Positions 14,164 to 32,149 of a stretch of DNA of 64,000 nucleotides are shown one piece after another (position 1 is the first letter of the stretch; every line of letters starts with the position of its first letter). The DNA lies in the NCBI RefSeq assembly GCF_031844685.1, contig NZ_CP134605.1:3678001-3742000 (forward strand). Direction: 5' to 3'. This stretch comes from Streptomyces sp. ITFR-21 (GTDB lineage: Bacteria > Actinomycetota > Actinomycetes > Streptomycetales > Streptomycetaceae). The notes under the pieces are model-generated. The model was not told where the DNA came from and did no database searches. It saw nothing but the letters and a program-made list of their open reading frames with translations. A program made the translations under genes and the position numbers.

Positions 14164-14740
14164 CCGCCGAACTCCTCGACGCCGTGCGGCTCCACCTTGC
14201 CCGAAACGGCGGCGAACCGACGCCCGCGCGGGTGGCCGCGGCGCTGCGCGCTCGGGGACGGCTGCTCGGCGACGCCGAAGTACTCGATGTCGTGGCCGCC
14301 CTGCGCTCCGAACTCGTCGGCGCCGGACCGTTGGAACCCCTGCTGGCCGACCCCGAGGTCACCGACATCCTGGTCAACGCACCCGACCAGGTGTGGATCG
14401 ACCGCGGCCGCGGCCTGGAACGCAGCGACATCGGGTTCGCCGATGCCGCAGCCGTGCGCCGCCTCGCCCAACGGCTGGCCACCACGGCCGGTCGGCGGTT
14501 GGACGACGCCAGACCCTGGGTCGACGCCCGGCTGCCGGACGGCACCAGGCTGCACGCCGTTCTCCCGCCGGTCGCCGTCGGCTCGCCGTGCCTGTCCCTG
14601 CGAGTGGTACGGTCCCGGGCCTTCACCCTGAGTGAACTGGTCACCGCCGGCACGCTGGACAAGCAGACCGCGGCGCTGCTGCGGGCCGTGCTCGACGCCC
14701 GGCTGTCCTTCCTGATCAGCGGTGGCACGGGCTCCGGCAA
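14160..14740 (+). pseudogene. tadA: tadA/cpaF pilus ATPase, 5' half (split by prophage)
   Basis: The first 193 codons encode the N-terminal domain of a TadA/CpaF secretion ATPase, including the LLADPEVTDILVN and DGTRLHAVLPP stretches, up to LISGGTGSG of the Walker A motif. The P-loop Lys codon is interrupted: after GGC-AA the sequence switches to phage DNA and the frame stops at 14768. The matching 3' half resumes at 56880. Joining 14160-14740 to 56880-57453 gives 1155 bases, exactly 385 codons with no frameshift. The gene is therefore inactivated by integration and restorable by excision. Confidence 0.95.
14736..14740. other. attL crossover point
   Basis: The tadA reading stops matching a Walker A motif directly after GGCAA (14736-14740); the next bases CCCCATG are phage. 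The corresponding attR shows GGGAA at 56875-56879. The shared dinucleotides are GG and AA, and serine integrases need only a 2-bp common core, so the exchange is at AA (14739-14740) or GG (14736-14737). Confidence 0.85.
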
Positions 14741-14898
14741 CCCCATGTTCACTTTGGAACACACCTAGATTTTCTATGCACGCGGTATGGGGGAGGGGTG
14801 GTGTTTCCGCAGGTCAGGTGCCCGGCCTCGCGTAGTCGGAGTGCTCCGTATGGGGCATGAATGGTTATGCGGAAAGGCGCCGATCATGGACAACGACG

Positions 14899-15561
14899 AA
14901 GGGGTCCTCATCAGTGAGGACCCCTTCCCGCTGTAAGGATCTGGCGGACCTTACGGACCTCCAGGTCATGAGCAGTTGCGTCCGTCGTCCTGACGGAGGC
15001 AGGGGTCCGGGCCAGTCCGGACTCCTGCGCGCCCGCGCGGGCCCCGAGCGAAGAGAAAGGGTACGCACTGGTGCGTACCCTTTGCTGCGGACAGGCTGTC
15101 CGCAGCAACCGTGGGTCTCTGCCCCACGGTTGCCGGGTAGTCGTGGGGCAGGAGCCACGACTGGGCATCGCCGCAGGTCGGGGAAGCTGCTGGTCGGAGC
15201 GGGTGTGAGATCCGGCGTTGTTTTATTACAGCGATCGTCACACCCGGGCGGTGTCCGCCTCGTCCCGTTTTCCCGGCTCCGGGAAAACGGCAGGTCACAG
15301 GGATGGACCAGTGAGACACTGGCTCGTCTCCCGGAGGATCGTTCTTGTCGGCATCGACATAAATGCAGGTCAGGACCATTTTGCCCAGATGGACAACTTG
15401 GTCTCGGACCTGGTCGGCACAATCTGCTGACCAGCCTCGCACGCACGGGCCGCCCCCTCGCCGACCTGCCGAGATTCGCGACACCCTTTGGGGGTGCCGC
15501 GAAATCCCCGTGTCGATATGAGCACGACTGCCGGGCCTGCATGGCGCAGAGCACCATGCAG
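14899..15561. repeat. Hairpin island next to attL
   Basis: No supported gene lies between 14769 and 15744. The stretch contains a run of perfect inverted repeats. Stems are 14899-14910/14915-14926 (12 bp), 15056-15068/15071-15083 (13 bp), 15084-15093/15097-15106 (10 bp), 15107-15115/15123-15131 (9 bp), 15139-15146/15155-15162 (8 bp), 15200-15208/15238-15246 (9 bp, AT-richer loop), 15265-15276/15279-15290 (12 bp), 15411-15419/15425-15433 (9 bp with one G-T) and 15537-15544/15554-15561 (8 bp). Arms differ in sequence from one hairpin to the next. Function unknown; a structured RNA, a stack of terminators, or a cis-acting DNA site near the attachment end are all possible. Confidence 0.85.
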
Positions 15562-15712
15562 CATCCCGCCCGCGCCCGCGTGGGGTGGACTTACTTCCTT
15601 CAAGGAAGTAAGTGGGATCGGGTCCCGAGCCCGCGCCCGCGTGGGGTGGACGGTCCGCCAGGGGTCAGCACAATCTGCTGACCCCCCGAGCCCGCGCCCG
15701 CGTGGGGTGGAC
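15562..15712 (+). CRISPR. Three type I-E-like repeats at 61-bp spacing (mini-array or CRISPR mimic)
   Basis: A 22-base core starting CCCGCGCCCGCG and ending GGGGTGGAC occurs at 15569-15590, 15630-15651 and 15691-15712. The core is identical in all three copies and the period is exactly 61 bp. Copies 2 and 3 also share CCCGAG before the core, making a 28-base repeat. A 28/29-base repeat with 32/33-base spacer is the type I-E geometry. The core folds as a 6-bp stem (one G-T pair) with a four-base loop, followed by GGTGGAC, resembling actinobacterial I-E repeats. No cas genes are present. Unusually, both spacers are palindromic: stems 15589-15600/15602-15613 and 15661-15670/15676-15685. Confidence 0.6.
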
Positions 15713-15744
15713 CCTTCGCGGCGTGCGGCTTTGCGGGGGTCACG

Positions 15745-15924
15745 TTGACCCTCACAACGGCGAAGGCCCGCACCGTCGTCCGTGGCGGCAGTGCGGGCCG
15801 ATGGGCGCCGGGGTGCGGCGACTACCCGCGCGTGGCCCTGTATGCCCTCCTGGACCACGTAGACGGGTGCACGGACTGCCGCGCCCGCCTGGAAGGCTGT
15901 CCCGACGGCGCCACGCCGCACTGA
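15745..15924 (+). CDS. Small Cys-containing hypothetical protein (59 aa)
   Basis: The frame has very high G/C at third positions and ends in a Cys-rich tail: a C-x2-C pair in DGCTDCRARLEGCPDG with a further Cys, plausibly a small zinc site. The only upstream initiator in frame is TTG at 15745, with a GGGGG run about 6 bases before it. A shorter version could start at GTG within PRVALYALLDH. A perfect 9-bp hairpin (15765-15773/15791-15799) lies inside the 5' part, which weakens the case for the longer form. It converges on the next gene. Confidence 0.4.
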   Translation: MTLTTAKARTVVRGGSAGRWAPGCGDYPRVALYALLDHVDGCTDCRARLEGCPDGATPH

Positions 15925-15925
15925 C

Positions 15926-16510
15926 TCAGGTGCCGTAGGCGCCGCCGATGGCGCGGCTCCGGTCGGCCAGCGGGTCGTGCAGCTCGAAGCTGTGACCTCC
16001 CCGGTGCCCGGCGTACTCCATGCAGGGCTCGCCGCCGCCGACCGCGGGGCAGGGCGGCAGCACCCGCACTTGGGCCGGCACGGTGCCGTCGCACCAGCTG
16101 GCCCAGACCGCGCCGGTGTCGGGGCCGTCCAGGTCCAGGACGAACGCCTGGTGGTCGTCATCGCCGTGTGCCTGGAGCGTGCAGCGCAGGTCCCGCTCGA
16201 CGTCGGCGGCCGAGGCGCGGCCGGGGTGCGGCTCCAGGGCAACGGCGGCGGGGACGAGTGCGGCGGGCAGGAAGCTGCGGCGGCCGCACACCTGCGGCTG
16301 GTCGGTGTCGGGCATGGGTGGTCTCTCTTCGGTCGCGGAGGGCGTGCGGTGGCAGGTGCAGCTGCACGCCGTCTCGGGCAGGACTGGCGCGCTGATGCCG
16401 GGCAGCCACATGGGGCCGTTGCCGCGGCACCTGGCGTGCTGCGCGGGAAAGTTCACGAGGTGGGCGCCGGCGCAGTACGGGCCGATGGCCGCTGTTGGGC
16501 TGTACGTCAC
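15926..16510 (-). CDS. Hypothetical Cys/His-rich accessory protein
   Basis: The 194-residue product has two Cys/His-rich areas: an N-terminal one (CRGNGP ... CSCTCHRT) and a C-terminal one with PPCPAVGGGEPCMEYAGHRGGHSF, which looks metal-binding. The middle reads like a DUF6907-type beta-rich domain common on actinobacterial mobile elements (FVLDLDGPDTG). This assignment is tentative. The GTG start overlaps the preceding stop as GTGA, so it is translationally coupled to the upstream gene, forming a two-gene operon divergent from the GntR regulator. Confidence 0.65.
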   Translation of the reverse strand: MTYSPTAAIGPYCAGAHLVNFPAQHARCRGNGPMWLPGISAPVLPETACSCTCHRTPSATEERPPMPDTDQPQVCGRRSFLPAALVPAAVALEPHPGRASAADVERDLRCTLQAHGDDDHQAFVLDLDGPDTGAVWASWCDGTVPAQVRVLPPCPAVGGGEPCMEYAGHRGGHSFELHDPLADRSRAIGGAYGT

Positions 16511-16848
16511 GGCTGCTCGCTGCCGAGCTCGGCCCATAAGCCCCGGCCGTCAACGGCCGTTCCCTGGGCGGTGGACAGCTCGGTGATGATGACCCGGCCG
16601 GGCCCGTAGAGGGCCTGGAGCGAGAGCATCCGGTCACCCGATGCGGTGATCCGTAAGCGGATGCCCGCGGTGGACACGGTCATCTGCACCTTGGAGGGGT
16701 GCACCGCCAGTACGGCGATGAACAGTTCGGCGGTGATCTGCGGCGCGTCGGTGTGGCCGGTGTGGGTGCTCACCCATGCCCGTGCTTCGGCGGCCTGCGC
16801 CGCTTCAGGGGGGAAGGCGCGCTGCCAGCTCTGACCCGTTTCAGGCAT
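16507..16848 (-). CDS. Hypothetical protein under the GntR operator
   Basis: The 113-residue soluble protein has predicted helices followed by beta strands (TAELFIAVLAVHPSKVQMTVSTAG). I recognise no domain. ATG at 16848 follows GGGGACA. Its promoter region contains the long inverted repeat at 16874-16908, shared with the divergent GntR gene, so it is probably repressed by that regulator. Position next to attL suggests a lysogen-expressed accessory operon. Confidence 0.65.
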   Translation of the reverse strand: MPETGQSWQRAFPPEAAQAAEARAWVSTHTGHTDAPQITAELFIAVLAVHPSKVQMTVSTAGIRLRITASGDRMLSLQALYGPGRVIITELSTAQGTAVDGRGLWAELGSEQP

Positions 16849-16873
16849 GGGTGTGTCCCCAATTCCCGTAGCG

Positions 16874-16908
16874 TTCTGAGTACGGAAAACTTCTTTCTGT
16901 ACTCAGAA
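16874..16908. promoter_or_regulatory. Inverted-repeat operator between divergent GntR and accessory operon
   Basis: A 35-bp dyad with perfect outer arms TTCTGAGTAC (16874-16883) and GTACTCAGAA (16899-16908). It extends inward as GGAAA/TTTCT with one mismatch. A further half-site GTACAGAAA lies at 16954-16962, closer to the GntR start. Dyads of this type are typical GntR/KorSA-family operators, and the site is placed to control both directions. Confidence 0.8.
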
Positions 16909-16992
16909 TCACGTGAGACTTGGCGCCGGTCAAGACGAACCAGCAATATGTGTGTACAGAAACGGGACGATCACTCACGAGGGTGGGCGCAC

Positions 16993-17748
16993 GTGGCAGA
17001 GCGGCCGGAGTACCTCCGCATCGCGGCGGACATCCGCACCCACATCACCGACGCCACCTACCGGCCCGGCGACAAATTGCCCACCCTGCCGGTGCTGTGC
17101 GACACCTACGGCGTCAGCGAGACCACCATCCGCAACGCCCTGGCGGTACTGCGCGCCGAGGGCCTGATCGAGACCCGCACCCGCGCCGGGACCATCGTCC
17201 GCGACCGGCCGCCCGTCCACCGCCTCACCGCCGACCGCTACCGCACCCAGCCCGGCCCGCCGCAGACCGCCTTCACCCGCGACCAGGGCATCGGCTGGTC
17301 CGAGTACCGCCTCGACAAGCGCTTCGAGAGAGTCCGCGCCGGCGCCGACCTGGCGGCGCTCTTCGAATGCGAGGTCGGCGAGGCGCTGCTCGCACGGCAC
17401 TTCGTCTTCTACGACAGCGACGAGCCCACCCAGATGTCCACCAGCTACGTCCGCTGGTCCGACGTGGCCGGCACCCCGGTGGCCGATCCGATCAACGAGC
17501 CCTGGCCCGGCGGGACCCGCGCGCAGCTCGCCCACATCGGTATCCGCGTCACCCGCATCACTGAGACGTTCACCACCGGCATGCCCACCGAGAAAGAGGC
17601 CACCGTCCTGCGGATCGGCGGCGCCGTCCCCGTGCTCCGCTTCACCCGCCGGCATCTGGCCGCAGACGGCCGCGTGGTCGAGGTCGCCCACCCCATCGTC
17701 AGGAGAGGCGACGCGACCGTGGTCGAGTTCGCCATCGACCTGGACTGA
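16993..17748 (+). CDS. GntR/HutC-family repressor (KorSA-like)
   Basis: The 251-residue product has an N-terminal winged helix (PEYLRIAADIRTHI ... YGVSETTIRNALAVLRAEGLIETR) and a C-terminal UTRA ligand-binding domain (about residues 90-245) with ALLARHFVFYDSDEPTQMSTSY and PVLRFTRRH. It resembles KorSA, the regulator of actinobacterial integrative conjugative elements such as pSAM2. GTG at 16993 is chosen because GAGGG precedes it and family members start at this point. The frame is open further upstream (ATG 16948). It probably autoregulates through the adjacent dyad. It sits outside the phage's main repressor region. Confidence 0.85.
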   Translation: MAERPEYLRIAADIRTHITDATYRPGDKLPTLPVLCDTYGVSETTIRNALAVLRAEGLIETRTRAGTIVRDRPPVHRLTADRYRTQPGPPQTAFTRDQGIGWSEYRLDKRFERVRAGADLAALFECEVGEALLARHFVFYDSDEPTQMSTSYVRWSDVAGTPVADPINEPWPGGTRAQLAHIGIRVTRITETFTTGMPTEKEATVLRIGGAVPVLRFTRRHLAADGRVVEVAHPIVRRGDATVVEFAIDLD

Positions 17749-17755
17749 GTAAAAG

Positions 17756-17887
17756 GCCCCCGCCTCGGTGAGACGGGGGCCGGCCACCGCACAGCCACGT
17801 GGATGGGATACCGCCACCGTACCCGCAGGGTCCGACAGCGGGCATGACGAAAGGCCCCCGCCCGGACCCTGAGGTCCAGACGGGGGC
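17756..17887. terminator. Two hairpins between convergent GntR and lysis genes
   Basis: Hairpin 1: GGCCCCCG (17756-17763) / CGGGGGCC (17775-17782), directly after the GntR stop. Hairpin 2: GCCCCCG (17854-17860) / CGGGGGC (17881-17887) with a nested GGACC/GGTCC stem, just beyond the stop of the leftward lysis operon. Each is preceded by AAAGG. They end the two converging transcripts. Confidence 0.75.
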
Positions 17888-17894
17888 TCAGTCG

Positions 17895-18152
17895 TTATTG
17901 CCAGGGCAGCAGTTCGAGGTCGTCGGGCGGCTCTGGCGGCGGACCAGCTGGGCCGGGGTCGATCTTCGCGGCCCACCGACGCAGGTCCACATACGCCCGG
18001 GTGAGGAGCTGCCGCTGTTCCCGCTCGTGCGTCAGCTCGCGGTCGAGCCGACGGGTGATCGTCGTGAACGATGACCGCCGGGACTGCCGCCACGCGGCGG
18101 CACCGCCGAGGACCGTAGCCACCGCGGTACCGACCGCGCCCAGGTCAATCAC
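17895..18152 (-). CDS. Small membrane-anchored lysis-cassette protein (Rz-like layout)
   Basis: The 85-residue product starts with one hydrophobic segment (VGTAVATVLGGAAAW), continues with a charged helix rich in Arg/Glu (about residues 25-60), and ends Pro-rich. An N-terminal anchor plus coiled-coil-like helix at the end of a holin/endolysin cassette resembles spanin-like or accessory lysis proteins, but actinophages lack an outer membrane and no homology is recognised. GTG at 18152 overlaps the upstream stop. Confidence 0.55.
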   Translation of the reverse strand: MIDLGAVGTAVATVLGGAAAWRQSRRSSFTTITRRLDRELTHEREQRQLLTRAYVDLRRWAAKIDPGPAGPPPEPPDDLELLPWQ

Positions 18153-18585
18153 GGTCGCCCCCCTTCTTGTCGTACAGGATTCCGACGACCCAGGGCGGTT
18201 CCGACATCCCCGCGCACAGCACGATGAAGACGCTGAAGGCCAGCCAGGCCGCCGCCGAGCCACTTGACGACGGCAGGCCGCCGGCCCACGCCGAGCGGGC
18301 ATAGGTCACGCCCCACAGGACCGCGGGTCCGGACAGTGCGGTGAACCCCGGGGCCTGGTACCGCATCCGCCGGCCCAGGCCCGCCAGGACCGCGACCGCG
18401 CCGGCGGCGACCCAGACCCAGCCCAGGCTCGACAGCGGGATGTACCGGGTGATGCCGGCCAGGCCGCGGGAGCGGGCGTACCCGGGGTCGGTGATGATCG
18501 ACCGGCCGTAGAGGATCCAGCCGGTGCCGAGGACCATGAGGGCCGCGGGGCGCAGCCCCCCGACCAGGCGCACCGCGGCCCGCAT
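18145..18585 (-). CDS. Four-TM membrane protein of the lysis cassette
   Basis: The 146-residue protein has about four hydrophobic segments (PAALMVLGTGWIL, LGWVWVAAGAVAVLAGL, a middle segment, WLAFSVFIVLCAG). In actinophages, multi-TM proteins beside the endolysin are often second holins or membrane proteins of unknown role. It overlaps the upstream holin gene by one base (TGATG) and the downstream gene by 8 bases, so all three are one translationally coupled unit. Confidence 0.65.
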   Translation of the reverse strand: MRAAVRLVGGLRPAALMVLGTGWILYGRSIITDPGYARSRGLAGITRYIPLSSLGWVWVAAGAVAVLAGLGRRMRYQAPGFTALSGPAVLWGVTYARSAWAGGLPSSSGSAAAWLAFSVFIVLCAGMSEPPWVVGILYDKKGGDRD

Positions 18586-18890
18586 CACAGCGCCGTGGTG
18601 GGCGGCACCGGAGCGACCGCCGGGGTCCCGCCGATGGCGATACCGCCGTCGGCGTCCGGGTAGTGCGGCGGGCGGGCGAGGCCGAGGAGCCAGCCCCAGG
18701 CCGGGGAGACGTGGGCCTCCAGGAGGCGGAACAGGGTGTAGTACGCGGAGCTGAACGCCGCGCCGAGCCACAGGGTCAGGGCCGCGCTGTCGACGCCGAT
18801 CCCGGCGTGGGCGAGCCACGCGGCGAGGGTGCCGACGATCACGGGGACCAGGGTGCGCCACAGGGACGCGAGGGTGTCGTACACGGTCAT
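18585..18890 (-). CDS. Putative holin
   Basis: The 101-residue protein has two hydrophobic segments (LVPVIVGTLAAWLAHAG and LTLWLGAAFSSAYYTLF) and a hydrophilic C-terminal tail rich in Pro. It lies immediately downstream of the GH25 endolysin. Size, topology and position fit a class II holin that times release of the endolysin. Holins are assigned mostly by context. Confidence 0.7.
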   Translation of the reverse strand: MTVYDTLASLWRTLVPVIVGTLAAWLAHAGIGVDSAALTLWLGAAFSSAYYTLFRLLEAHVSPAWGWLLGLARPPHYPDADGGIAIGGTPAVAPVPPTTAL

Positions 18891-18909
18891 GACAGTTCCG
18901 TTCTGCTGG

Positions 18910-19875
18910 TCAGCTGGTGGTGGGCTGGGCGCCGGTCACGTCCACGTCGACGTGCACGACGCTGCTGGCGATGGCGGCCTGGACGGCGGCCACGACGGCG
19001 GCGGTGTCGACGCCGGAGCCGATGAGGCGGCCGGCGAGGGTTTCGACGGTGGCGGTGAGGGCGCTCACCTGGGTGAGGAGGCTCTGGGTGTTCGCGGCGG
19101 CCTTGGCCGCCTGTCCGTACCCGGCCCAGAGGGCGCCGCGGACGGTCACGGTGTCGGCGCCGGGTTTGGTGGGGTCGTCGATGCGGGTGTCGAGCAGGGT
19201 CTTGGCGTCGGCCTGGCTGAAGGTCACGTCGTGCTCCTGGGGGGTGGTGTTGGTGGCCCAGGCGCGGAGGGCGGCCGGGCTGAGGTAGGCGAGGTTGCGG
19301 TCCACGGGGGTGCTGGTGAACTGCCAGACCAGCGGCTGGTGCCCGGACGGGGCCGGCCGGGGGCGGGCCGCGGCCTGCGCGTAGGTCATGGCGCCCGCCG
19401 GGTAGGCCGGGTACCACAGTGCGTCCGCGTTGCCGGGCATCCGGCCGGCCGCGATGTCCGCGGCCGAGGTGTAGACCCCGACGCGCTGCCCCGGAAACGC
19501 CCGCCGCACGGCGGCGATCCAAGCGGTGGCATACGCGCGGATCTGAGCGTTGGTGGCGCCCTGGTAGTTGGCGCCGTCGGTGCGGCGTTCCAGGTCCAGC
19601 CAGTGAAGGAACCCGGGCCGGGCGAACGGCCGGACCGCCTCCACGTAGTTGGCGGCCTCGACCGTCGGGCTCTGGTTGGGCCATCCGTAGTGGTACGCGC
19701 CAGGGATGAGGCCCGCGGCCAGGATGCCGGTGATGTGCACGGCAAACCGGGGGTCGCGGCTGTGCTGGCCCTCGGACGCCTTGGCGAACGCGAAGGCCAG
19801 GCCGTCCCTGGCGAGGGCGGCCCAGTTCTGCGGGGCCTGGTAGGCGGAGACGTCGATGCCGGTGCAGGTGTCCAT
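18910..19875 (-). CDS. Endolysin: GH25 muramidase with C-terminal helical region
   Basis: The 321-residue protein begins with a glycoside hydrolase family 25 domain (about residues 5-200): GIDVSAYQ at the start strand, FAFAKASEG, YHYGWPN, the catalytic DxE motif in HWLDLERR, and VGVYTSAA. These enzymes cut the N-acetylmuramic acid-N-acetylglucosamine bond of peptidoglycan. The remaining 120 residues contain a helical stretch (AAKAAANTQSLLTQVSALTATVETLAG) that may oligomerise or bind the wall. No signal peptide is seen, so export would rely on the holin encoded next. It is the first gene of the lysis cassette. Confidence 0.9.
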   Translation of the reverse strand: MDTCTGIDVSAYQAPQNWAALARDGLAFAFAKASEGQHSRDPRFAVHITGILAAGLIPGAYHYGWPNQSPTVEAANYVEAVRPFARPGFLHWLDLERRTDGANYQGATNAQIRAYATAWIAAVRRAFPGQRVGVYTSAADIAAGRMPGNADALWYPAYPAGAMTYAQAAARPRPAPSGHQPLVWQFTSTPVDRNLAYLSPAALRAWATNTTPQEHDVTFSQADAKTLLDTRIDDPTKPGADTVTVRGALWAGYGQAAKAAANTQSLLTQVSALTATVETLAGRLIGSGVDTAAVVAAVQAAIASSVVHVDVDVTGAQPTTS

Positions 19876-19947
19876 ACGCCCTCCCGGGATATGGCAAAGC
19901 CCCGGGCCGGGGTGGCGCGGGGCGGGCGGGACGCGGTGCGTGCGGGG

Positions 19948-21138
19948 TCAGGGGCAGCCGAGGGTGATGCGCTGCCAGTCGATGCGGGAGGGGGCGCCGA
20001 CGGCGTCCCAGGTCTCGTAGGCGATCCCGACGTGGACGCGGTCGGTCTTGGCCATGTCGGAGTACGCGGCGAAGGTGTCGGGCCCGGTGATGTCGGAGAT
20101 GGTGCGCCAGGTGATCCCGCCGTCGTCGGAGCGGCGCAGGGTGAGGTGCCGGCGGACGAGGGGGTCTTCGGGGGCGGTGTACAGCAGCGGGGCGCAGGTC
20201 ACCCCCTGGGGGTATCCCGGGTCCTGGAGCAGGGAGCCTTCGACTTCGGGTGCGGGGACCTGGGGTGCGGGCCGGACCGGTGCGGAGAATGACGAGCCGG
20301 AGGTGAGGCTGTAGGTGTAGCCGCGGCCGAGCGGCGGGGTCAGGGACTGGCCGCCGACGTTGCGGGACAGGACGTACAGGCGTGCGTCGGGGAGTTCGGC
20401 GATGGAGGTCTCGCCCGGCCGGACCGGGTCGTCGGTCGCGCTGTGGTCGTCGGTGTCGCCGGTGCGCCAGGTCTGCCCGTCGTCGTCGCTGATCAGGGTC
20501 TGGATGCCGCGCAGGCCGGGGGCGGTGTGGTCGGCGGGGGCGACCAGGCGCCCCTTCGCCCGGCCGTACTGGATGGTCACTCCGTGGCCGGGGCCGGTGT
20601 TCATCCACCGCCACCCGGCCGCCTTGACAGAGGTGGTGATCTCGCGCCGCGCGGACCAGGTGACGCCGGCATCGTCCGAGGTCTGGACGAAGACCCGGCG
20701 GGCGTCCTGCGCACTGACGGTTCCGGCCTCGATCTCGGGCTGGGTGACGCTGCCGCCCTGGCGGTCGAAGACGAGGACGATGGTGCCGTCGTCGGTGACC
20801 ATCGGGGTGGGGCAGTCGATGGTGTCGTACCAGTCGTCGGCGACCACCTGCTGCGGTGTCCAGGTGCAGCCGCCGTCGGTGCTGCGGCGCTCCAGGATCT
20901 CCACGTCGCCGCCGTCCGCGGCGCTGTTCTTGCGGCCTTCGGCGAAGGCGACCAGGGTGCCGCGGGCGGTGACGACGGCGGGGATGCGGTAGGCGGCGTA
21001 GCCGCCGGTGCCGGAGGCCCACAGCGTGCTGGTGCAGGCGGTCGCGGTGGCGGGCGCCGCGGTGGCGGCCGGGATGGTGGTGAGGGCGGCGAGCAGGGGA
21101 AGTGCTGCTGCCAGGGTGGCGCGTGCGCGAAGGCGCAT
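19948..21138 (-). CDS. Secreted exo-sialidase (GH33, BNR repeats)
   Basis: The 396-residue product has a signal peptide (Arg-containing start, hydrophobic core to about residue 27, Ala-rich cleavage region). The GH33 hallmark YRIP follows near residue 50, then four Asp-box repeats: STDGGCTW, SDDAGVTW, SDDDGQTW and SDDGGITW. Sialidases release terminal sialic acid from glycans. The gene sits between tail genes and endolysin in the late strand direction, yet encodes an exported enzyme rather than a virion part. It may be a lysogenic conversion gene or a depolymerase for host wall glycans. Confidence 0.88.
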   Translation of the reverse strand: MRLRARATLAAALPLLAALTTIPAATAAPATATACTSTLWASGTGGYAAYRIPAVVTARGTLVAFAEGRKNSAADGGDVEILERRSTDGGCTWTPQQVVADDWYDTIDCPTPMVTDDGTIVLVFDRQGGSVTQPEIEAGTVSAQDARRVFVQTSDDAGVTWSARREITTSVKAAGWRWMNTGPGHGVTIQYGRAKGRLVAPADHTAPGLRGIQTLISDDDGQTWRTGDTDDHSATDDPVRPGETSIAELPDARLYVLSRNVGGQSLTPPLGRGYTYSLTSGSSFSAPVRPAPQVPAPEVEGSLLQDPGYPQGVTCAPLLYTAPEDPLVRRHLTLRRSDDGGITWRTISDITGPDTFAAYSDMAKTDRVHVGIAYETWDAVGAPSRIDWQRITLGCP

Positions 21139-21156
21139 GGGTGGGTGGGCCTCTCG

Positions 21157-21594
21157 TCAGGTGGTCGGGTAGGTGAGGGTGGTCAGGCTGATCCGGGTGA
21201 CGGTGCCGGTGGTGGCCTGGATGGTGAGCAGTCCGGCGGAGGTCAGGGTCAGGTCGGCCGCGGCCGTGGTGGCGCCGCCGCCGACCCGCAGCTCGATGTC
21301 GCCGGCCGGCCAGTAGCCGGGGGGCAGTACGGCCACGGTGGTGCCGGCGGTGAGGGTGCCGGGGATGAGGGAGCCGATGAGGCGCACGACGCCGTTGGCT
21401 TCCATGCGGACGGCGGGTGCCGCCCAGGACCCGCCCGCCGGGGCCCAGCCGCCCGCGGTGGGGAGTTCCTGCCAGGCGCCGGTGACGGCGGAGCGGCGGG
21501 CCGCGCGCAGCTCGGCGAGCTGCCGCTCCAGGCGGGCGATGCGTTCGCCGAGCGCGCGCAGGCCGCCCGGCATCCGGTCTGCGGGCAGTGGCAT
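21157..21594 (-). CDS. Short tail-associated protein
   Basis: The 145-residue protein has an N-terminal coiled coil (ALGERIARLERQLAELRAAR), then a beta-rich domain (MEANGVVRLIGSLIPGTLTAG ... VAVLPPGYWPAG) like those at the ends of tail fibres and baseplate appendages. It probably trimerises through the coiled coil. The ATG at 21594 lies one base after the preceding stop. Assignment is by architecture and position. Confidence 0.6.
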   Translation of the reverse strand: MPLPADRMPGGLRALGERIARLERQLAELRAARRSAVTGAWQELPTAGGWAPAGGSWAAPAVRMEANGVVRLIGSLIPGTLTAGTTVAVLPPGYWPAGDIELRVGGGATTAAADLTLTSAGLLTIQATTGTVTRISLTTLTYPTT

Positions 21595-21595
21595 C

Positions 21596-22681
21596 TCAGA
21601 TGTCCTCCAGCAGGATCGGCGTGACGGCGTTGGCGCCCGGGTCGAGCTGCCAGCCGTAGGCGCGGGCGGTGATGTCGACGCCGGACGGGTGGCCCAGGCT
21701 CGCCCCGGGCTCGACGTGCAGGCCGATGGAGTCGCCCAGGGCCCAGTCGCGGCCGAGGCGGGGCGCGGCGGACGCGGCGGCGGTGACCGTCCAGGCCGAG
21801 GCGCCGGTGCGCAGGTCGGACAGGGCCTGCACCGCGGAGGCGTTGAGGGCGGCGGGGTCGGTGCCGCCGGCGGCGGGGGTGTAGCGGTAGACCCATCGGG
21901 GCCAGCCGGCCGCAATCAGGTCGGTGGCGGTGTAGACCGCGCTGTGCAGCCGGGCCGCGCCCTCCCCGGCTCCCCAGGCCAGCACCTGCGTGGCGCCCTT
22001 GCCCGCCTCGTAGGACTGGGCCTGGCTGTAGGAGGTGATGCACCCGGGCAGGTCGAAGACCGCGTCCGGGTCGGGCCGGACTACGCCGATGCGGGGGCGG
22101 ATCCGCAGAACGAGCTGCACGGCGGACCGGCCGGCGTCCGCCCATTGGGTGTCGATGGTCCACTCGGGCCATCCGTCCTGCTGCTGGATCTCCTGCAGCA
22201 CGGACAGGATGGTGCGGTCGTCGCCGTCGCCCACCGTGTAGGCGCCGGTGACACCCACGGCGGGTGCGTCCACGATGACCGGCGGTCCGTCCACCAGCAG
22301 TGCCTGGCTGACGCCGGTCATGATGGCCGCCTGGTCCGCGGTGGCGGTGTAGTCGCCGGTGTACCGGCGGTCCAGGTACGCCTCGGGGGTCGCCAGGCCG
22401 AGCGATGCGGTGATGGCGGTGCCCCGGTCCAGGGTGAGGACGATCCCGGTCCACACCGGCTGCTGGGTGAGGCGGTCGACGGCCACCAGCATGGACCGGC
22501 CGGGGGTGGTGGCGTACTCCCAGTCGGCCGGCGCCCCGGCCAGGCCCAGGTCCGCGGTGACGCTCGACGACGAGCCCAGACGCCGCTCCAGCGGCCCCGA
22601 CGGCACCAGCGACAGCAGCTCTTCGACGACGACGCCCGTCATGAGGTCTGCGGCGTACCAGTCGAGTTCGTAGGCCGGCAC
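21596..22681 (-). CDS. Minor tail / baseplate protein
   Basis: The 361-residue protein starts with an ELDWYAADLMTG strand and has VWTGIVLTLDRG and YTVGDGDDRTILSVLQEIQQQDGW stretches typical of the siphovirus minor tail protein encoded after Dit, related to the tail-hub (Gp27/Tal-like) family in actinophages (ReqiPepy6 Gp37-like group). It probably forms the baseplate hub beneath the distal tail protein. It lies head to tail with its neighbours. Confidence 0.7.
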   Translation of the reverse strand: MPAYELDWYAADLMTGVVVEELLSLVPSGPLERRLGSSSSVTADLGLAGAPADWEYATTPGRSMLVAVDRLTQQPVWTGIVLTLDRGTAITASLGLATPEAYLDRRYTGDYTATADQAAIMTGVSQALLVDGPPVIVDAPAVGVTGAYTVGDGDDRTILSVLQEIQQQDGWPEWTIDTQWADAGRSAVQLVLRIRPRIGVVRPDPDAVFDLPGCITSYSQAQSYEAGKGATQVLAWGAGEGAARLHSAVYTATDLIAAGWPRWVYRYTPAAGGTDPAALNASAVQALSDLRTGASAWTVTAAASAAPRLGRDWALGDSIGLHVEPGASLGHPSGVDITARAYGWQLDPGANAVTPILLEDI

Positions 22682-23731
22682 TCAGGCGATCCGGTGCGCG
22701 CGCAGCCATGACCCGGCGCGCACGGTCGTCGCGGCGGCGTCGGAGACGGACTGCCCCCACTGGTAGGTGAGGCTGCCGGCGGTGGTCGTGGTGATGGTGC
22801 CGACCGGGCGGCCCGCCACGTTGGTCGTGCTGGGCAGGGTGGATGTCACGGTCCAGCCGCCGGAGCCGACGGCCGCCCGGATCCCCCCGGTGTCGGAGGT
22901 GCCGCCCGACAGCGCCCACGGCGACCACAGCATCGTCGCACCGGACGGCGCCGCCCACTGGGCCTTGAACTCGGCGTTGTCCGGGGTGCTGTAGATGATG
23001 AAGGCGTCGACGGCGTAGGCCGCGTTGGCTGCCAGGGGCACGGTGAGCTGGCTGTCCGTCTGGAAAGCGGTGCTGGCGCTGACCTGCTGGTCGGCGGTCT
23101 TGCGGGCGGTCAGGAACTGGCTGTACGGCACCCAGCCCGTCCCGGTGTACCGCTCCAGGGCGCCCGTGGCCGGGTTGTCCCGGTACTGGCCGGCGTAGTA
23201 CCCGGACACGGCCCCGCCGGGGGCGATGCCGCCCGGCGCGACCGCGTAGGGGCGCAGATCCTGCACCGTCGGCGTGGTGCTCCCCGCCGGGACCGTGATG
23301 GCCGCCAGGGTGATGTAGACCTGCGTGCCGGACGGTGTCGGCGCCGTCCCGGACCCCGGCGTCCCCGCCAGGTACACCACATCGCCCTGGGTCAGGCCGG
23401 AGGCGTCCACCGCGCCGTCCCACACCCTCAGGTACACCAGGTCTATCCGGGTCAGGCTGGCGTGCGCGGTGGAGACGGTGCCGGTCCAGGTGGTCGGGCT
23501 GAAGGTCCGGTACACCCCCTGTCCGGGGTAAGCGATGGCGGCGACTCCGGCGGCCACGCTGATGGACATGCCGGCCAGGGAGGCCAGCAGGCCCGGATCT
23601 CCCGGGCGCACGCCTCCCAGGCTGCCCGCGGCACTGCCGTTGGTCATGAGCGACATGGCCTCGACCCGGCGCATCTCGGCGCCCGAGTATGTCAGGCCGT
23701 CGATCCAGACCGGGTCGTCGGTGAAGGGCAC
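22682..23731 (-). CDS. Baseplate/minor tail protein with receptor-binding-like C terminus
   Basis: The 349-residue protein has an N-terminal region common in actinophage tail appendages (DPVWIDGLTYSGAEMRR ... GLLASLAGMSISVAAGVAAI, then RIDLVYLRVWD) and a Gly/Ser/Thr-rich beta C-terminal half. The pattern resembles phage proteins linking the baseplate to a receptor-binding domain. Sequence-level family membership is not certain. It directly abuts the following gene. Confidence 0.65.
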   Translation of the reverse strand: MPFTDDPVWIDGLTYSGAEMRRVEAMSLMTNGSAAGSLGGVRPGDPGLLASLAGMSISVAAGVAAIAYPGQGVYRTFSPTTWTGTVSTAHASLTRIDLVYLRVWDGAVDASGLTQGDVVYLAGTPGSGTAPTPSGTQVYITLAAITVPAGSTTPTVQDLRPYAVAPGGIAPGGAVSGYYAGQYRDNPATGALERYTGTGWVPYSQFLTARKTADQQVSASTAFQTDSQLTVPLAANAAYAVDAFIIYSTPDNAEFKAQWAAPSGATMLWSPWALSGGTSDTGGIRAAVGSGGWTVTSTLPSTTNVAGRPVGTITTTTAGSLTYQWGQSVSDAAATTVRAGSWLRAHRIA

Positions 23732-23740
23732 GTCCGCCTC

Positions 23741-24604
23741 CTATTTCCAGGCCGCCCGCCAGGTGGCGGTCAGCTGAGCGGTAGAGCTGTAGACGGGAGC
23801 GGAGAAGAGGATCTGCACCGACGACGCCGGGATCGAGGGCCACGGGCCGGACAGATACCGGCGCCGGGACGCGCCCCCGAGCACCGCGGTGTGCGCCGCA
23901 CAGTCCAGGACCAGGACGTCACCGGCGCCGAGCGTCTGCGAGTACGCCAGGGTCGTTACGGTGCCGTCCGGGTACCGCACGCTGACACTGGGCTGCTGCA
24001 CCGGCCCGGCGATCGACAGCGCCGGCAGGCTCGCGATGCTGCCCTCATTCGTTGCCGAGATGAAGCCCGTGACCGTGGTGGCGCTCAGCGTCCACGGGGT
24101 CGCGGCCGGCAGGACCAGGCCGCCGGTGGTGGACGGCAGCCCAGTGCTGGCTGTCCGCAGGTCGGTGCCGTACCGGCGCGGGTCCGGCGCCGTCACCAGC
24201 AGACTCCAGGTGACGACCGTGTCCGTCTCGTACTTGATCACCGGTTTCCCGGACTGCCGCACCATCGCCTGCTTGGGCACCGTCTCGTAGACGGTCAGCG
24301 TCGCGTACCCGGACTCCATGGGCACGGCGGCGAGCAGCTGCTCGACCGCCCCGTCCAGCAGCTGGGGCGACGGCGCGGCGATGGTGCCGCCCAGGGTGAT
24401 GACCCGCTCCCCGAGATAGGTCGGTCCCATCCACGCACCGTGCGCCGCCTCCCGCTGTGTCACGCTCGACCGCACCTCGGCGCTGTCCCAGCCCTGGAGC
24501 CCGTCCGCCCCGATCCGCCAGGCCACTCCCTGGCCGTCGACCTGGCCGAGCTGCAGCGGTCCGAGGTCGACCCGCCGGCCGCCGAGCCCCATCCCGGGCA
24601 TCAT
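23741..24604 (-). CDS. Distal tail protein (Dit-like)
   Basis: The 287-residue protein begins with a PLQLGQVDGQGVAWRI strand and has the phage_tail (Sipho_tail) pattern GERVITLGGTIAA followed by a C-terminal carbohydrate-binding-like lobe. It is encoded directly after the tape measure in the direction of transcription, the usual place of Dit, which forms the ring joining tail tube to baseplate. Confidence 0.75.
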   Translation of the reverse strand: MMPGMGLGGRRVDLGPLQLGQVDGQGVAWRIGADGLQGWDSAEVRSSVTQREAAHGAWMGPTYLGERVITLGGTIAAPSPQLLDGAVEQLLAAVPMESGYATLTVYETVPKQAMVRQSGKPVIKYETDTVVTWSLLVTAPDPRRYGTDLRTASTGLPSTTGGLVLPAATPWTLSATTVTGFISATNEGSIASLPALSIAGPVQQPSVSVRYPDGTVTTLAYSQTLGAGDVLVLDCAAHTAVLGGASRRRYLSGPWPSIPASSVQILFSAPVYSSTAQLTATWRAAWK

Positions 24605-24634
24605 CCGGCCACCACCTTCTTCCGGTTCGGGCTG

Positions 24635-27600
24635 TCAGGCCAGGACGGTCATGTGCCGCAGCAGGTCCGCGCGCTGCTCACCCAAGCTCTGCTGGGCGCC
24701 GCTGAGGTGCACGTGCTGCGACCGGTCGACGTGCGTCGGCCCGGCCGGGGCGGTCGCGGGCCCGGCCCACCGGCCGGCGGGCACCAGCTGGTAGCCCTGC
24801 GCCGCCGCCGCGGCCGACAGCAGCCCGGCCGACCGGGCGGACCCGTTCTGCGGGATCCACCACTCCGGACTCCCGGCCTCTGCTGCCAGGACGGTCGTCG
24901 GCCGGGTCAGCAGCCCGCCACGCGCCATCGCCGTCGCACCGGACTGCCCGGCCAGCTCGGTCAGCAGTTCCGTCCGGTACGCCGCCGGCAGCGCCCGGAT
25001 CTGGCCCATGATCCGGGGCGCCAGCGCCCGCACCGTGGCCGCGTCCAGGCCCGCGCCGGCCAGCGCCGCGAAGCCGGCGCCGGGCCGGCTCCGGAGGGTG
25101 GCCAGGAGGACCAGGGCATTGGCGAGGTCGTCACCCGTGAGCACGGCGTTGCTCTTGGCGACCGCGCTGCTGGCCGCCGCCGCGCCCTTCGCGGAACCGG
25201 CCGCCTGGTGGGCGAGGGCCTGCGCCGCGCTGTCGCCCTGCGCGGCCAGGGCCTGCGCGAGGTCGCCGTACCCCTCGCCCGCGAGCTTCTGCAGGTCTGC
25301 CGCGAACTGCGCGTTGACCTTGGTCGACGCGTTGACCTGGTTGTTGAAATCCGCGAGCGTCGCCTTGGCGATTCCGGCCGTCGCCAAGAGCTTCTTGGTG
25401 ATGTCTGCGAACTGCCTGTCCGACGCCTTGGCGAGAGACTTGACCAAGGCGTAGCCGTCCTCCCCCAGGCCCTCCAGCACGCTCTCGATCTCGCTGCCGC
25501 CACGGCGGGCGATCTTGGCCAGGTTGGTGCGCCAGGCGTTGGTCGATGCGACCGAGATCGACAGCTGCTTCTGGTAGGCGGCGAGGTTGAAGGCGGGGTT
25601 GCGGGAGCCGCGGGCGACCCCGAGGGCGGCGTCTGCCGCGTAGACGTCGCCCTTCGCCGAGGACACCGCCTTGTTGGCGGCCGCCGACGCCTTCCGCGCG
25701 TCGGAGAGTTTCTTCTCCGCCGCCGCGAGCTGGGCCTCGGTGTGGTGCCCGCCGCGGACCCGGCGCAGGTTCGCCTCGGCGTCGTGCAACTGGGTGGTCT
25801 TCTTCGCCGCGTCCGCGAGGGTCTTGGTCAGCGCCGCCCACGCGGCCTTCAGCTTGTCGTTGGCGGCGTTGTAGCGGTCCATGGGGTTGCCCGTGCCGCC
25901 CAGGGTGGGTGACGCGGTGGGGGTGTAGGAGACTCCGCCGTTGGCGTACCAGGCGATGCCCTTGCCGCCGAGCAGCCGCACGGTCTCCTCGGCGATGGCA
26001 CGCGACCGCCCCCGCTTGGACGGCGCCAGCGGGATGTAGCTCTCCCCGCCGGTCTCCGGCTCCGCCCACAGCCGCATCGCCCCGGCCGGGGCGATCTGCG
26101 CAACGTGCCGCTCCACCCCGCCGGACGCGAAGGCCCGGAAGATGTTGCCGTCGGCACTCGCCGCGTTCGGCCCCCTGCCACCCTTGCCGCTGTTGATGGT
26201 GCGGTTCTCGGTGGTCAGGACGATCGTCTTGTCCTGCAAGGTGGCCAGGTACGCCTGGATGCGGGCGACCGCGGCCTTCGGCCCGTCGGTGGGCACCGTG
26301 ACCGAGATCTTCTTGCCAGGCAGAGCGGCAACCTTGAAGCCCAGATCCCTCAGGGCCTTGATCGCCTCGGCGGTCGGCGCCTTGACCGTTACGGTGTGGC
26401 CGGCAGGGATGCCGGCCAGCTGCTTCTTCACCGCCTCCAGGCCAGTCACCGCCGGGTCCGTCTTCGCGGCAACCGTGGTGGTGACGCCGGTCGGCACCTT
26501 GGCGTAGGCCGCAATGAGCTTGTTGACGACGTCGCGGGAGTAACCGTCCGCGATCATCTTCTTCCGGAGCTGGGCCACGTTCGCGGCCAGCGCCCTCGTC
26601 CCGGCCTCTTGGGAGCCGGTCTGCTGGGCGATGGCCTGCGCGTTCTTCTCGGCCGCCTGGGCGGCGTCCAGGAAAGCCTGGGCGTTCTTGCGGCCCTTGT
26701 CCGTGTGCTGGTCCAGGCTGTGCCCGTTGTCCTTCACGGACGCCTTGAGGTCGGCCAGACTGCTCTGGAAGTCGATCGAGCTGCTGGCCACGTCGATGTT
26801 GATGCCGTTGAGGGCGTCCAGGGCGTCGGTGAGCTTCTCCGCCTCGGTGCGGGTGTCCTGCAGGTCGTCGGCGGTGACCGTGGTCTGGTCGCCCAGCGCT
26901 TTCTGGCCGGCCGTTGTGAGCTTGCCCTGCGTTTCCAGTCCGGCCAGTGCGTCCACGTACTGGGGCATCAGCTTCTTGACGTCCGCGACGCTCTTGCCGT
27001 GTGCGGCCTCAGCGTCGGTCAGTTGCTTGAACGCGGCAGCGGCGATCTTGGCGTTGCCGGAGGCGACGAGGGCGGCGAGCGACTCGTCGAAGCCCTTGAT
27101 GTTGTCCTTCGCCTTGTCGAGTTCGCTCGTCCCGAACTGGCCGAATCCGGTGCTGAGCTTGTCGAAGAACTGGATGGCCTTGTTGTTCGCGCCGGACGAC
27201 GACAGCGTGGAGATGGCGTCGGTCAGGCCGCCGAGGTCTTCGCCGTACTTCTTGGCCAGCGCCCCGGAGACCTTGCCCTTCTGTCCGAGGTCGACCACGG
27301 AGGCCGTCAGTTCGTTGGCGCTGGGCCCGGAGCCGTCCATGATCGACTGGAGCTGTCGGGTTGCGGCGCCGAGCGCCACCAGCACGCCGATGACGGCAGA
27401 GACCTTGCCCACCGTCAGGAGGGCGGACCGGGTGCCGGCCGCGGTGACGCCCAGGCTGGACAAGGCGGTGCGGGTGGCGGCGATGCGGGGCAGCAGCAGG
27501 AGCAGGCCGGCCGCGGCGAGGCCGGCACCGCCGCCGATGCCCGCGAAGAGCGTTACCCCTTTCTGCAGGCCCGGGGGCAGGTCGGCGTAGGCGTTGACCA

Positions 27601-28666
27601 GCGCGGTGGTCCACTTGACCATGTCGCGCAGCGCGCCGGTCGCCGCGGAGCCGCCCTGGATGAGCGCCACCTCGATGGCTCCGCGCAGCCGCTCCATGTC
27701 ACCGGAGAGGTTGTCGGTCTGGATCGCGGCCATCCGCGCGGCGGCACCCGAGTCGTTGACCTCGGCCACGTACTTGTTGACGCCTTGGGCGCCCAGCCCG
27801 TAGACCACGGTCGCAGCGCGCACCGCGTCCGAGCCGAAGATAACGCCCATCGCAGCGTTGCGGGCCTCCGGCGTGAGGTTCCCGAAGCTCTTCTGCAGCC
27901 TGGCCGCCAGCTCGGACAGGCCGACGAACTTGCCGCTGCTGTCGTAGGCGCTGAAGCCCAACTTGTCCATCATGTCCCGGGCTTCCTGGGACTGCGGGGT
28001 GAGGTGCTGCAGCATCGTCTTCAGCGACGTGCCGGCGTCACTGCCGATCAGGGCGTGGTCGGCGAACGCGGACAGCACGCCGACGGTGTCCTCCAGGGAC
28101 AAGCCCGTCTGCTCCGCCAACAGGCCGCCCATCCGCAGGGACTCGCCCAGGCCGTGGACGTCCGCCGCGCTCTTGTTGGCGCCGGCGGACAGGACGTCGG
28201 CGATGTGGCCGACGTCCTTGCCCTGCAGGTTGAAGGTGTTCATGGCCTGCGCGCTGATGGTCGCGGCCTCGGCCAGGTCGAGCTGACCGGACGCGGCCAG
28301 CGCCAAGGAGCCCTTGAGGGCGCCGCCGGTGATGTTCGCCACCGACACCCCGGCCCGAGCCAGTTCCGCCTCGGCGTCGGCGGCCTCCGACGCGCTGTAG
28401 GCGGTGCTCTTGCCCGCGTCCAGTGCCGCGCTGCGGAGCTGTTCCATCTCCTTGCGGGACGCGCCGCTCACCGCGCGGACGTTGGACAAGGATTTGTCGA
28501 CCTTCGCCGCGGCGCTGACGGCCAGGGCGAAGCCGGTGACCAGGGCCGCGGATGCGGCGGCGCCCGCGCCGGCCAGGGCGTTCGTGGATGATGCGGCCGA
28601 GCGGATACCGCGGGTGTAGCCGGAGATGTCCGCCCGCAGACGGACGGTCACAGTGCGGTCAGCCAC
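24635..28666 (-). CDS. Tail tape measure protein (TP901 type)
   Basis: The 1343-residue protein begins ADRTVTVRLRADISGYTRGI and carries the PhageMin_Tail domain (LRSAALDAGKSTAYSASEAADAEAELARAG). Long Ala/Lys-rich helices and at least two hydrophobic stretches follow (about residues 360-400). The C-terminal part is rich in coiled coil. Tape measure length sets tail length, so a tail of roughly 200 nm is expected. I chose GTG at 28666, with AAGGGGG upstream, over the longer open frame, because that frame overlaps the frameshifted chaperone. The gene begins 3 bases beyond the chaperone T stop. Confidence 0.92.
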   Translation of the reverse strand: MADRTVTVRLRADISGYTRGIRSAASSTNALAGAGAAASAALVTGFALAVSAAAKVDKSLSNVRAVSGASRKEMEQLRSAALDAGKSTAYSASEAADAEAELARAGVSVANITGGALKGSLALAASGQLDLAEAATISAQAMNTFNLQGKDVGHIADVLSAGANKSAADVHGLGESLRMGGLLAEQTGLSLEDTVGVLSAFADHALIGSDAGTSLKTMLQHLTPQSQEARDMMDKLGFSAYDSSGKFVGLSELAARLQKSFGNLTPEARNAAMGVIFGSDAVRAATVVYGLGAQGVNKYVAEVNDSGAAARMAAIQTDNLSGDMERLRGAIEVALIQGGSAATGALRDMVKWTTALVNAYADLPPGLQKGVTLFAGIGGGAGLAAAGLLLLLPRIAATRTALSSLGVTAAGTRSALLTVGKVSAVIGVLVALGAATRQLQSIMDGSGPSANELTASVVDLGQKGKVSGALAKKYGEDLGGLTDAISTLSSSGANNKAIQFFDKLSTGFGQFGTSELDKAKDNIKGFDESLAALVASGNAKIAAAAFKQLTDAEAAHGKSVADVKKLMPQYVDALAGLETQGKLTTAGQKALGDQTTVTADDLQDTRTEAEKLTDALDALNGINIDVASSSIDFQSSLADLKASVKDNGHSLDQHTDKGRKNAQAFLDAAQAAEKNAQAIAQQTGSQEAGTRALAANVAQLRKKMIADGYSRDVVNKLIAAYAKVPTGVTTTVAAKTDPAVTGLEAVKKQLAGIPAGHTVTVKAPTAEAIKALRDLGFKVAALPGKKISVTVPTDGPKAAVARIQAYLATLQDKTIVLTTENRTINSGKGGRGPNAASADGNIFRAFASGGVERHVAQIAPAGAMRLWAEPETGGESYIPLAPSKRGRSRAIAEETVRLLGGKGIAWYANGGVSYTPTASPTLGGTGNPMDRYNAANDKLKAAWAALTKTLADAAKKTTQLHDAEANLRRVRGGHHTEAQLAAAEKKLSDARKASAAANKAVSSAKGDVYAADAALGVARGSRNPAFNLAAYQKQLSISVASTNAWRTNLAKIARRGGSEIESVLEGLGEDGYALVKSLAKASDRQFADITKKLLATAGIAKATLADFNNQVNASTKVNAQFAADLQKLAGEGYGDLAQALAAQGDSAAQALAHQAAGSAKGAAAASSAVAKSNAVLTGDDLANALVLLATLRSRPGAGFAALAGAGLDAATVRALAPRIMGQIRALPAAYRTELLTELAGQSGATAMARGGLLTRPTTVLAAEAGSPEWWIPQNGSARSAGLLSAAAAAQGYQLVPAGRWAGPATAPAGPTHVDRSQHVHLSGAQQSLGEQRADLLRHMTVLA

Positions 28667-28668
28667 CG

Positions 28669-29034
28669 TCAGACCCCCTTGCGGCGCTTGATGTGGACGT
28701 GCAGGCCGGCGGGGTTCCCGCCGCCGTCCTGGAATGCCTTGACCCGGGTCGCCGACGCCTTGCAGGCGTGGCAGCGGATCACCTCGGCGTCGAACTCGAA
28801 CTCGTTCTCTGGGGCGGTCGCGTCGCCCCACTCGGTGCCGCAGTCCGGGCACCGGTCGGCCTCGACCTGGGCGAGCGCCAGGGCCCACGCCCGGTCGTCG
28901 GGCAGCCACAGCGGCTCGCCGGGCTGCACGACGCGCCCCATGAACACGGAGCGGGGCACGCCGTGCGCCCGTGCGGCTTCTACTTCTCGCCGCCAAGGCC
29001 CGCCAGGAGTGCGGAGGCGGCCAACGAGAAAGGG
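28669..29034 (-). CDS. Tail assembly chaperone T extension (made by -1 frameshift)
   Basis: This frame has no own ribosome-binding site and overlaps the end of the G chaperone by about 55 bases in the -1 frame. It encodes about 120 residues with a Cys4 zinc-ribbon-like motif (CPDCG ... CHAC). In siphophages the T segment is produced as a G-T fusion by ribosomal slippage and recruits tape measure to the tail tube. Here CCCTTTC lies in the right phase at 29034-29028 to give that fusion. It ends just before the tape measure start. Confidence 0.85.
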   Translation of the reverse strand, partial: PFLVGRLRTPGGPWRREVEAARAHGVPRSVFMGRVVQPGEPLWLPDDRAWALALAQVEADRCPDCGTEWGDATAPENEFEFDAEVIRCHACKASATRVKAFQDGGGNPAGLHVHIKRRKGV

Positions 29035-32148: not shown

Positions 32149-32149
32149 G

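Follow-up and report, generated by a model that had tools for sequence, protein, structure and literature searches.

The window, meaning the whole 64-kb stretch of DNA analyzed here, corresponds to C1:3678001-3742000 of the 7.36-Mb genome of Streptomyces sp. ITFR-21. A prophage with head, tail, tape measure, portal, terminase, and serine integrase genes splits a TadA-like ATPase gene, the N-terminal part of which lies at 14160-14768 (Pfam T2SSE) and the C-terminal part of which, recognized by translation, lies in the ORF at 56722-57453. An att core at 60804 was rejected as a chance match, the interrupted gene picking up again near 56.87 kb. Just inside the left end of the prophage is a hairpin-rich stretch with three short repeats at its right edge. 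The features of this region are as follows (window coordinates).

14740..56870 (approximate ends, by eye), no strand assigned: prophage of about 42 kb, delimited by gene content and the split TadA/T2SSE-like gene
14898..15685, no strand assigned: stretch with nine hairpins with 8- to 13-bp stems and the array at one end (hairpin and folding scans)
15301..15322, plus strand: motif GGATGGACCAGTGAGACACTGG, common to other integrated elements (motif searches)
15412..15432, plus strand: S1-like hairpin outside the array, 23/33 identical to S1 on the minus strand, with GGC rather than AAG as its flank
15563..15590, minus strand: repeat R1, distal, like R2 with a 2-nt deletion (repeat alignment)
15591..15623, minus strand: spacer S2, 33 nt, palindromic; source not found (spacer searches)
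15624..15651, minus strand: repeat R2, identical to R3 (repeat alignment)
15652..15684, minus strand: spacer S1, 33 nt, palindromic; likely source a Bro-N antirepressor gene (spacer matches)
15685..15712, minus strand: repeat R3, leader-proximal, GTCCACCCCACGCGGGCGCGGGCTCGGG (core and repeat alignment)
15713..15734, minus strand: leader-end-like sequence GCAAAGCCGCACGCCGCGAAGG (profile scan and likeness to the leader of genome G028)

A 203-amino-acid protein without a Pfam or PHROGs match is encoded at 15926-16537 (minus strand); its relatives occur in 50 of 394 family genomes, at up to 8 places per genome.

The sequence-only reading of this DNA had described a CRISPR-like array of three repeats with a 22-base core and an exact spacing of 61 bp, and this geometry was borne out. 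The core occurs at 15569, 15630, and 15691 (spacing, 61 and 61 bp), and at up to three mismatches it was matched 3 times in the 64-kb window against 0.01 expected. The full repeats are 28 bp long, begin at 15563, 15624, and 15685, and are separated by 33-bp intervals, again with a period of 61 and 61 bp. R2 and R3 agree over all 28 bp, and R1 is the same sequence minus 2 nt. These are the dimensions of type I-E arrays (28- to 29-nt repeats, 32- to 33-nt spacers, a period of 61). Exact direct repeats of at least 18 bp, 20 to 400 bp apart, were limited in the window to the array and one GTCGTC-rich 20-bp pair at 34226. Beyond the array, the core was matched a single time in the genome, with three mismatches; it was absent from the viral contigs and from the matches listed for 35 genus genomes (one search, 12 candidates scored per genome). 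The only known RNA family in the window was 6C RNA, at 12699-12775, outside the array.

The first clue to a leader came from a blastn search with window positions 14770-15930 against the 35 genus genomes (E value of 0.001, 12 candidates scored per genome), which gave matches in six of them, the own genome included. The match in G028 was the leader-repeat junction of a 13-repeat array. We built a leader-repeat profile from six other junctions in three genomes; the discovery locus (L049) was excluded because it had been found through its likeness to the window. When all positions of the fetched loci were ranked, with array loci left out, the sum of leader (22) and repeat (24) on the minus strand placed the window junction first among 2,042,836 positions, and no other position reached its score. 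Four sub-windows and several registers were tried. The leader alone ranked 220 of 2,047,300, the repeat alone ranked 1,087, and leader (12) plus repeat (13) ranked 88 (about 2.05 million positions). Thus, only the full sum of leader and repeat is outstanding, and not its parts. With a first profile that included L049, the window junction came third, tied, once real arrays were removed, and a non-array site at 15455 (minus strand), 250 bp away in the same stretch, scored 12.9 versus 10.1 for the junction. In the plus orientation the junction ranked 494, and the plus-strand array orientation, our first guess (G-U pairs), was dropped. The array reads on the minus strand, with a type I-E-like leader end next to R3. 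No promoter-like site for the array was found with the sigma-70 consensus, which may not suit this host.

The genome carries two Cas6e matches, both outside the window and each within a full type I-E locus. Cas3, Cse1, Cse2, Cas7, Cas5, Cas6e, Cas1e, and Cas2e are encoded in both loci (the Cas3 and Cse1 matches of the first fall in one ORF), and the host arrays contain 41 and 17 repeats. As had been read from the sequence alone, the mini-array itself lies in a prophage with no cas gene in sight, none being found in the subset of window ORFs scanned. The first host repeat, in canonical orientation, is GTCCTCCCCGCGCCCGCGGGGCTGTTCCC, and the mini-array repeat matched the two host repeats at 16/28 and 14/28 positions, respectively. 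Comparison with 14 type I-E repeats, a subset of those published, in registers within 3 nt and in both orientations, gave a best identity of 19/28 (68%), shared by the orphan G028 repeat and the repeat of L135. The G028 array (L017/L049, at C1:1042000) lies 3.3 Mb from the sole Cas6e match of that genome. It resembles the mini-array in its leader end (16/19) and repeat (19/28) and differs in having 13 repeats, in belonging to another genome, and in 9 of the 28 repeat positions.

The claim of a type I-E-like repeat hairpin stood for one strand and fell for the other. On the plus strand, the repeat makes a 6-bp stem with a 4-nt loop (fold z, -0.85). On the minus strand, on which the leader lies, the stem is broken, no canonical stem forms, and the fold is no better than that of shuffles (z, 0.19), so that the strand predicted to be transcribed offers no Cas6e-type repeat hairpin. 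Two real type I-E repeats folded canonically, with z values of about -1.6. Loss of the hairpin on the array strand is as expected of a mere landing site.

Spacer S1 reads GGGTCAGCAGATTGTGCTGACCCCTGGCGGACC on the minus strand. Its core was found in one IMG/VR viral contig (L121), where the full-length match was 31/33, lay inside an ORF with a Bro-N domain (Pfam E value of 6e-11), and had the 5' flank GACGAAAA. A 30/33 match with the flank GCGGCGAA was present in an integrated element of genome G051 (L048). In both, AA directly precedes the first G of the match, completing AAG. In Streptomyces avermitilis, the type I-E PAM is AAG, and its last G is inserted together with 32 bp, as described in PMC4762764; S1 therefore has matches next to a PAM. 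At up to three mismatches, S1 occurred in 2 of 335 family genomes, the own genome and G051. Among phage records, 33 weak matches were obtained (best E value of 0.1); 23 of the best 30 of these 33 were annotated as antirepressors, many from near-identical Pseudomonas phages. On its left side, the homology of S1 to the viral gene reaches the repeat border and stops there; on its right side, it stops within 0 to 3 nt of the border. Outside the array, the window contains S1-like sites of 23/33 (flank GGC) and 21/33, with no AAG self target among the best matches.

In frame, S1 encodes the Bro-N motif GQQIVLTPGGP. At this motif, the stem measures 9 bp in L121, 11 bp in Bifidobacterium phage PMBT6, and 10 bp in Propionibacterium phage E1, whereas Mycobacterium phage Purky and Pseudomonas phage CF177c have stems of just 3 and 4; of the 11 loci examined, the remaining six had no match to the motif pattern. 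Judging by these sequences, the palindrome of S1 belongs to some of the targets and is not made by the array. Since the target itself is palindromic, the palindrome is no argument against acquisition, nor is a palindromic spacer proof of a decoy. The assertion that the intervals are unlike acquired spacers accordingly fails for S1, given its match to a viral Bro-N gene with an AAG PAM.

In some Bro-N antirepressor genes and in an SpdB-like gene, the coding motif contains a palindrome of the type GGT NNN CAGATTGTG NNN ACC. Such palindromes were seen in L121 (1934-1956), L048 (9607-9639), L156 and L159 (PMBT6 and E1), and L112 (10575, candidate frame), with imperfect cases in L014 (1635) and L113 (9845). 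By eye, the paired codons seem to co-vary (ACT/AGT, CAG/CTG, ACG/CGT, CTC/GAG). Because they seem to change together, the palindrome may be kept at the nucleic acid level, which we take as a hint.

The element of G051 provided a second case. In it, the motif of the hairpin stretch is followed by a direct repeat of 28 bp with a period of 61 bp, and the 33-nt interval between the copies is palindromic; 3.7 kb away, the identical 33-mer is flanked by another direct repeat, of 30 bp, whose period is likewise 61 bp. The two G051 repeats are alike at 19/28 positions and match the G051 host repeats at 15 to 17 of 28, in register. Neither array showed leader likeness in the profile scan. A copied array should not swap its repeats yet keep its spacer; two 33-bp insertions of one fragment, each with target duplication, would fit this arrangement simply. 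The best relative of the G051 spacer elsewhere is 27/33 (L069), with the PAM register off by one, so we make no PAM claim for it. Looser patterns of this spacer found nothing in the viral contigs, and the array had no match in plasmid and phage records. A viral contig containing the spacer core (L060) was rejected, as it lacks the 61-bp repeat; by eye, the match appears to lie in a tape-measure gene.

Such arrays appear to be rare. Searched with the second G051 array at an E value of 0.1, 213 of 394 family genomes gave matches; beyond the two G051 places, those among the matches listed were short and weak (best E value of 5e-5), and 0 of 19 other fetched loci matching this array had a repeat pair of at least 14 bp at 61 bp. 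No palindromic mini-array was found in 73 further SpdB-like neighborhoods (40+20+13, some matching the C-terminal part only), and it is on this count that we call the phenomenon rare. A scan of 170 loci totaling 2.01 Mb, with 33 small or overlapping ones excluded, yielded, besides the window and G051, ordinary-looking type I-E repeats at 61 to 62 bp, repeats, tandem or otherwise, with different spacings, and in L175 a single 24-bp pair at 61 bp whose interval is not palindromic. Two other arrangements were seen: two ordinary-looking type I-E repeats with one nonpalindromic spacer, a possible mini-array, at 3739-3828 of L169 (G300, an SpdB-like neighborhood), and an GTGACGCAGGTGACGCAG-type repeat with an inner hairpin and 85-bp spacing (L170, 2610; L181, 17719; and L191, 2739, which belong to genomes G174, twice, and G087).

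Both intervals of the window array contain the perfect palindromes originally described. That at 15661-15685 has a 10-bp stem and a 5-nt loop, and that at 15589-15613 has a 12-bp stem and a 1-nt loop and extends two bases into repeat R1. For S2, with a 10- to 12-bp stem and A rather than G as its first base, no source was found in viral contigs, also with looser patterns, and none that was convincing in phage records or fetched loci. The three distinct mini-array spacers have perfect stems of 9, 10, and 8 bp (3/3), versus 0 of 147 ordinary-array spacers with a perfect stem of at least 8 bp (nine arrays, spacers shorter than 45 nt, 2 longer ones dropped) and about 0.8% of 20,000 random 33-mers drawn from the window. 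This bias raises the question of whether branched DNA attracts Cas1-Cas2. Branched DNA as a substrate of Cas1 is a suggested possible cause. The 149 spacers of the nine arrays (G000, G028, and G051) gave no convincing match to the window or L048 among the matches listed.

The array is probably the work of a bacterium's own CRISPR machinery, which may have written to the wrong address. Our preferred reading, to which we give an even chance, is that the minus strand carries a type I-E mini-array of two spacers, an ectopic neo-CRISPR written into phage DNA by host Cas1e-Cas2e. In each event, a 33-bp fragment would have been inserted and a 28-bp target duplicated. Such target duplication reportedly accompanied the ectopic integration in the 2018 work of Nivala, Shipman and Church. 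The S1 fragment would consist of the G of the AAG PAM plus 32 bp and would have come out of a different phage, from its Bro-N antirepressor gene; the target would have been a stretch resembling a type I-E leader-repeat junction, most likely by chance. The array would make little or no working crRNA. We favor this reading because the exact 28+33 geometry occurs two times each in the window and in the G051 element, because the full leader-repeat score ranks first and S1 matches at 31/33 with AAG, and because Cas1e and Cas2e are encoded in both host loci. From these observations we infer the mechanism of insertion and the ectopic nature of the site.

Several observations speak against ectopic insertion. 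No relative with an empty site was found. Neither S2 nor the G051 spacer has a confirmed source, S2 starts with A, and its 12-bp palindrome enters R1 by two bases. Ordinary acquisition does not predict three palindromic spacers out of three. Leader and repeat rank lower singly than in sum, the site at 15455 outscored the junction in the first profile, and the G051 arrays show no leader likeness. The landing of an identical prespacer twice in one element is also hard to expect of a rare stray reaction.

A less likely origin, given perhaps one chance in a handful, is that some unsampled host array lent the phage its leader end and repeat and that the phage crRNAs, made and used by host Cascade, keep out rival phages by superinfection exclusion. 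A borrowed mini-array, too, would show a first-ranked junction, with likeness in both leader and repeat on the same strand, along with a spacer that matches a viral gene (PMC6858448). The AAG next to the Bro-N match of S1 and the lack of an AAG self target among the best window matches also fit it. The repeat does not: viral mini-arrays carry host-identical repeats according to a review (PMC11656645), and here none of the 14 type I-E repeats compared exceeds 19/28, which disfavors borrowing. The near absence of the core elsewhere (once in the own genome, with three mismatches, never in the viral contigs, and not among the matches listed for the genus genomes), the broken stem on the array strand, and the missing sigma-70-like promoter point the same way. 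What favors ectopic landing over borrowing is the G051 case, together with the divergence of the repeat and the loss of its hairpin.

Somewhat more doubtful is the view that the phage has here a structured RNA or protein-binding DNA, with the repeats and intervals as its hairpins, and that the likeness to CRISPR is due to chance. The setting lends it weight. Nine near-perfect hairpins are packed into about 800 bp (fold z of -11.2 on the plus strand and -13.4 on the minus strand, 20 shuffles each), an S1-like hairpin and a leader-repeat look-alike with a higher score in the first profile lie in the same stretch 250 bp off, and the S2 palindrome crosses a repeat border. Against it, other repeats show the 61-bp geometry in G051, a distant viral gene resembles S1 more (31/33) than the local copy does (23/33), the homology of S1 stops at or within 0 to 3 nt of the repeat borders, and the leader-repeat score ranks first.

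The motif of the hairpin stretch was present in 4 of 394 family genomes (own included) and in one viral contig. Its form GGATGGACCAGT[A/G]AGACACTGG was seen at window 15301-15322, at 6144-6163 of L042, and near 1501 in L043, L045, and L046. The elements that bear it otherwise differ; by eye, a tRNA-like sequence lies some hundred bases off in L042 and L045. By blastn, the hairpin stretch had no match in phage and plasmid records, nor did the hairpins of L014 in phage records, and no relative of the prophage integrase was confirmed among the viral contigs. Descent of the stretch from a decayed G051 SpdB-like gene was rejected; the peptide matches were short and nonsignificant, and the frames were broken.

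The sequence-only reading had gone on to propose an RNA anti-CRISPR, in which a repeat mimicking crRNA titrates host Cascade. In the form weighed here, the self-folding spacers would also be dud guides occupying Cas6e, Cas7, or Cascade. This is very improbable, for although the array lies in a phage of a host with two type I-E systems, all three spacers are palindromic, a 6-bp stem closed by a 4-nt loop is open to the plus-strand repeat, and G051 pairs one spacer with two repeats, the repeat is poorly matched to both host arrays and at best 19/28 elsewhere, the hairpin is on the wrong strand with an array-strand fold no better than shuffles, no sigma-70-like promoter was found (a consensus that may not suit the host), and S1 has a likely phage source that makes a designed dummy unnecessary. 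The array is probably not an RNA decoy. A CRISPR-like array in a prophage is what endures of that reading, as geometry, leader end, and one spacer agree.

If the ectopic reading is right, a type I-E spacer would here have entered a prophage naturally, at a junction that looks like the true one, which is possibly a first step toward a virus-borne or new CRISPR locus. The G051 33-mer between two different direct repeats makes the idea testable. More tentatively, and at about one chance in four, we suggest that hairpin-rich ends of actinobacterial phages and integrated elements are a favored source and landing site of stray Cas1-Cas2, giving cas-less mini-arrays with self-complementary spacers. 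Were this true, new CRISPR loci would have natural seeds in such arrays, which, if transcribed, could yield self-folding guides, in time perhaps selected as decoys. Among the best matches of a literature search on ectopic integration and palindromic mini-array spacers, with subscription journals mostly outside its scope, no title dealt with such arrays of actinobacterial phages.

With the solitary repeat units that act as RNA anti-CRISPRs (Racr; PMC10651486), the mini-array shares the presence, in a phage, of a repeat without cas genes, the host having the corresponding subtype. Unlike them, it is a mini-array with three repeats of low identity, a broken array-strand hairpin, and an acquired-looking spacer. 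The search described in that paper retained matches with an identity of 90% or more and did not count arrays and mini-arrays among them; with three repeats and a best identity of 19/28 among 14, the mini-array falls outside such a definition, and the Racr claim is lowered on this ground.

Mini-CRISPR arrays of Sulfolobales viruses are described in PMC6858448. Common to these and the window array are one or two spacers (here two), no cas genes (the cas loci of this genome lie elsewhere; prophage ORFs were scanned in part), leader likeness, a spacer matching another virus, and no self target with a PAM found. Leader likeness is good; the repeat, unlike in the Sulfolobales arrays, is far from identity with the host's (16/28 and 14/28 to its own arrays, 19/28 to G028). 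S1 fits an array that targets others and spares its carrier, whereas no source is at hand for S2, and the target of S1 is a widespread gene family, for which close relatedness is not claimed.

Close to our preferred reading is the ectopic integration by type I-E Cas1-Cas2 reported by Nivala, Shipman and Church 2018 (as cited in PMC11788318 and PMC9456107), which shares with it insertion away from the CRISPR locus. The mini-array differs from that system in being natural, in lying in a prophage, in comprising two events at one site, in having palindromic spacers, and in that its insertion is read from sequence.
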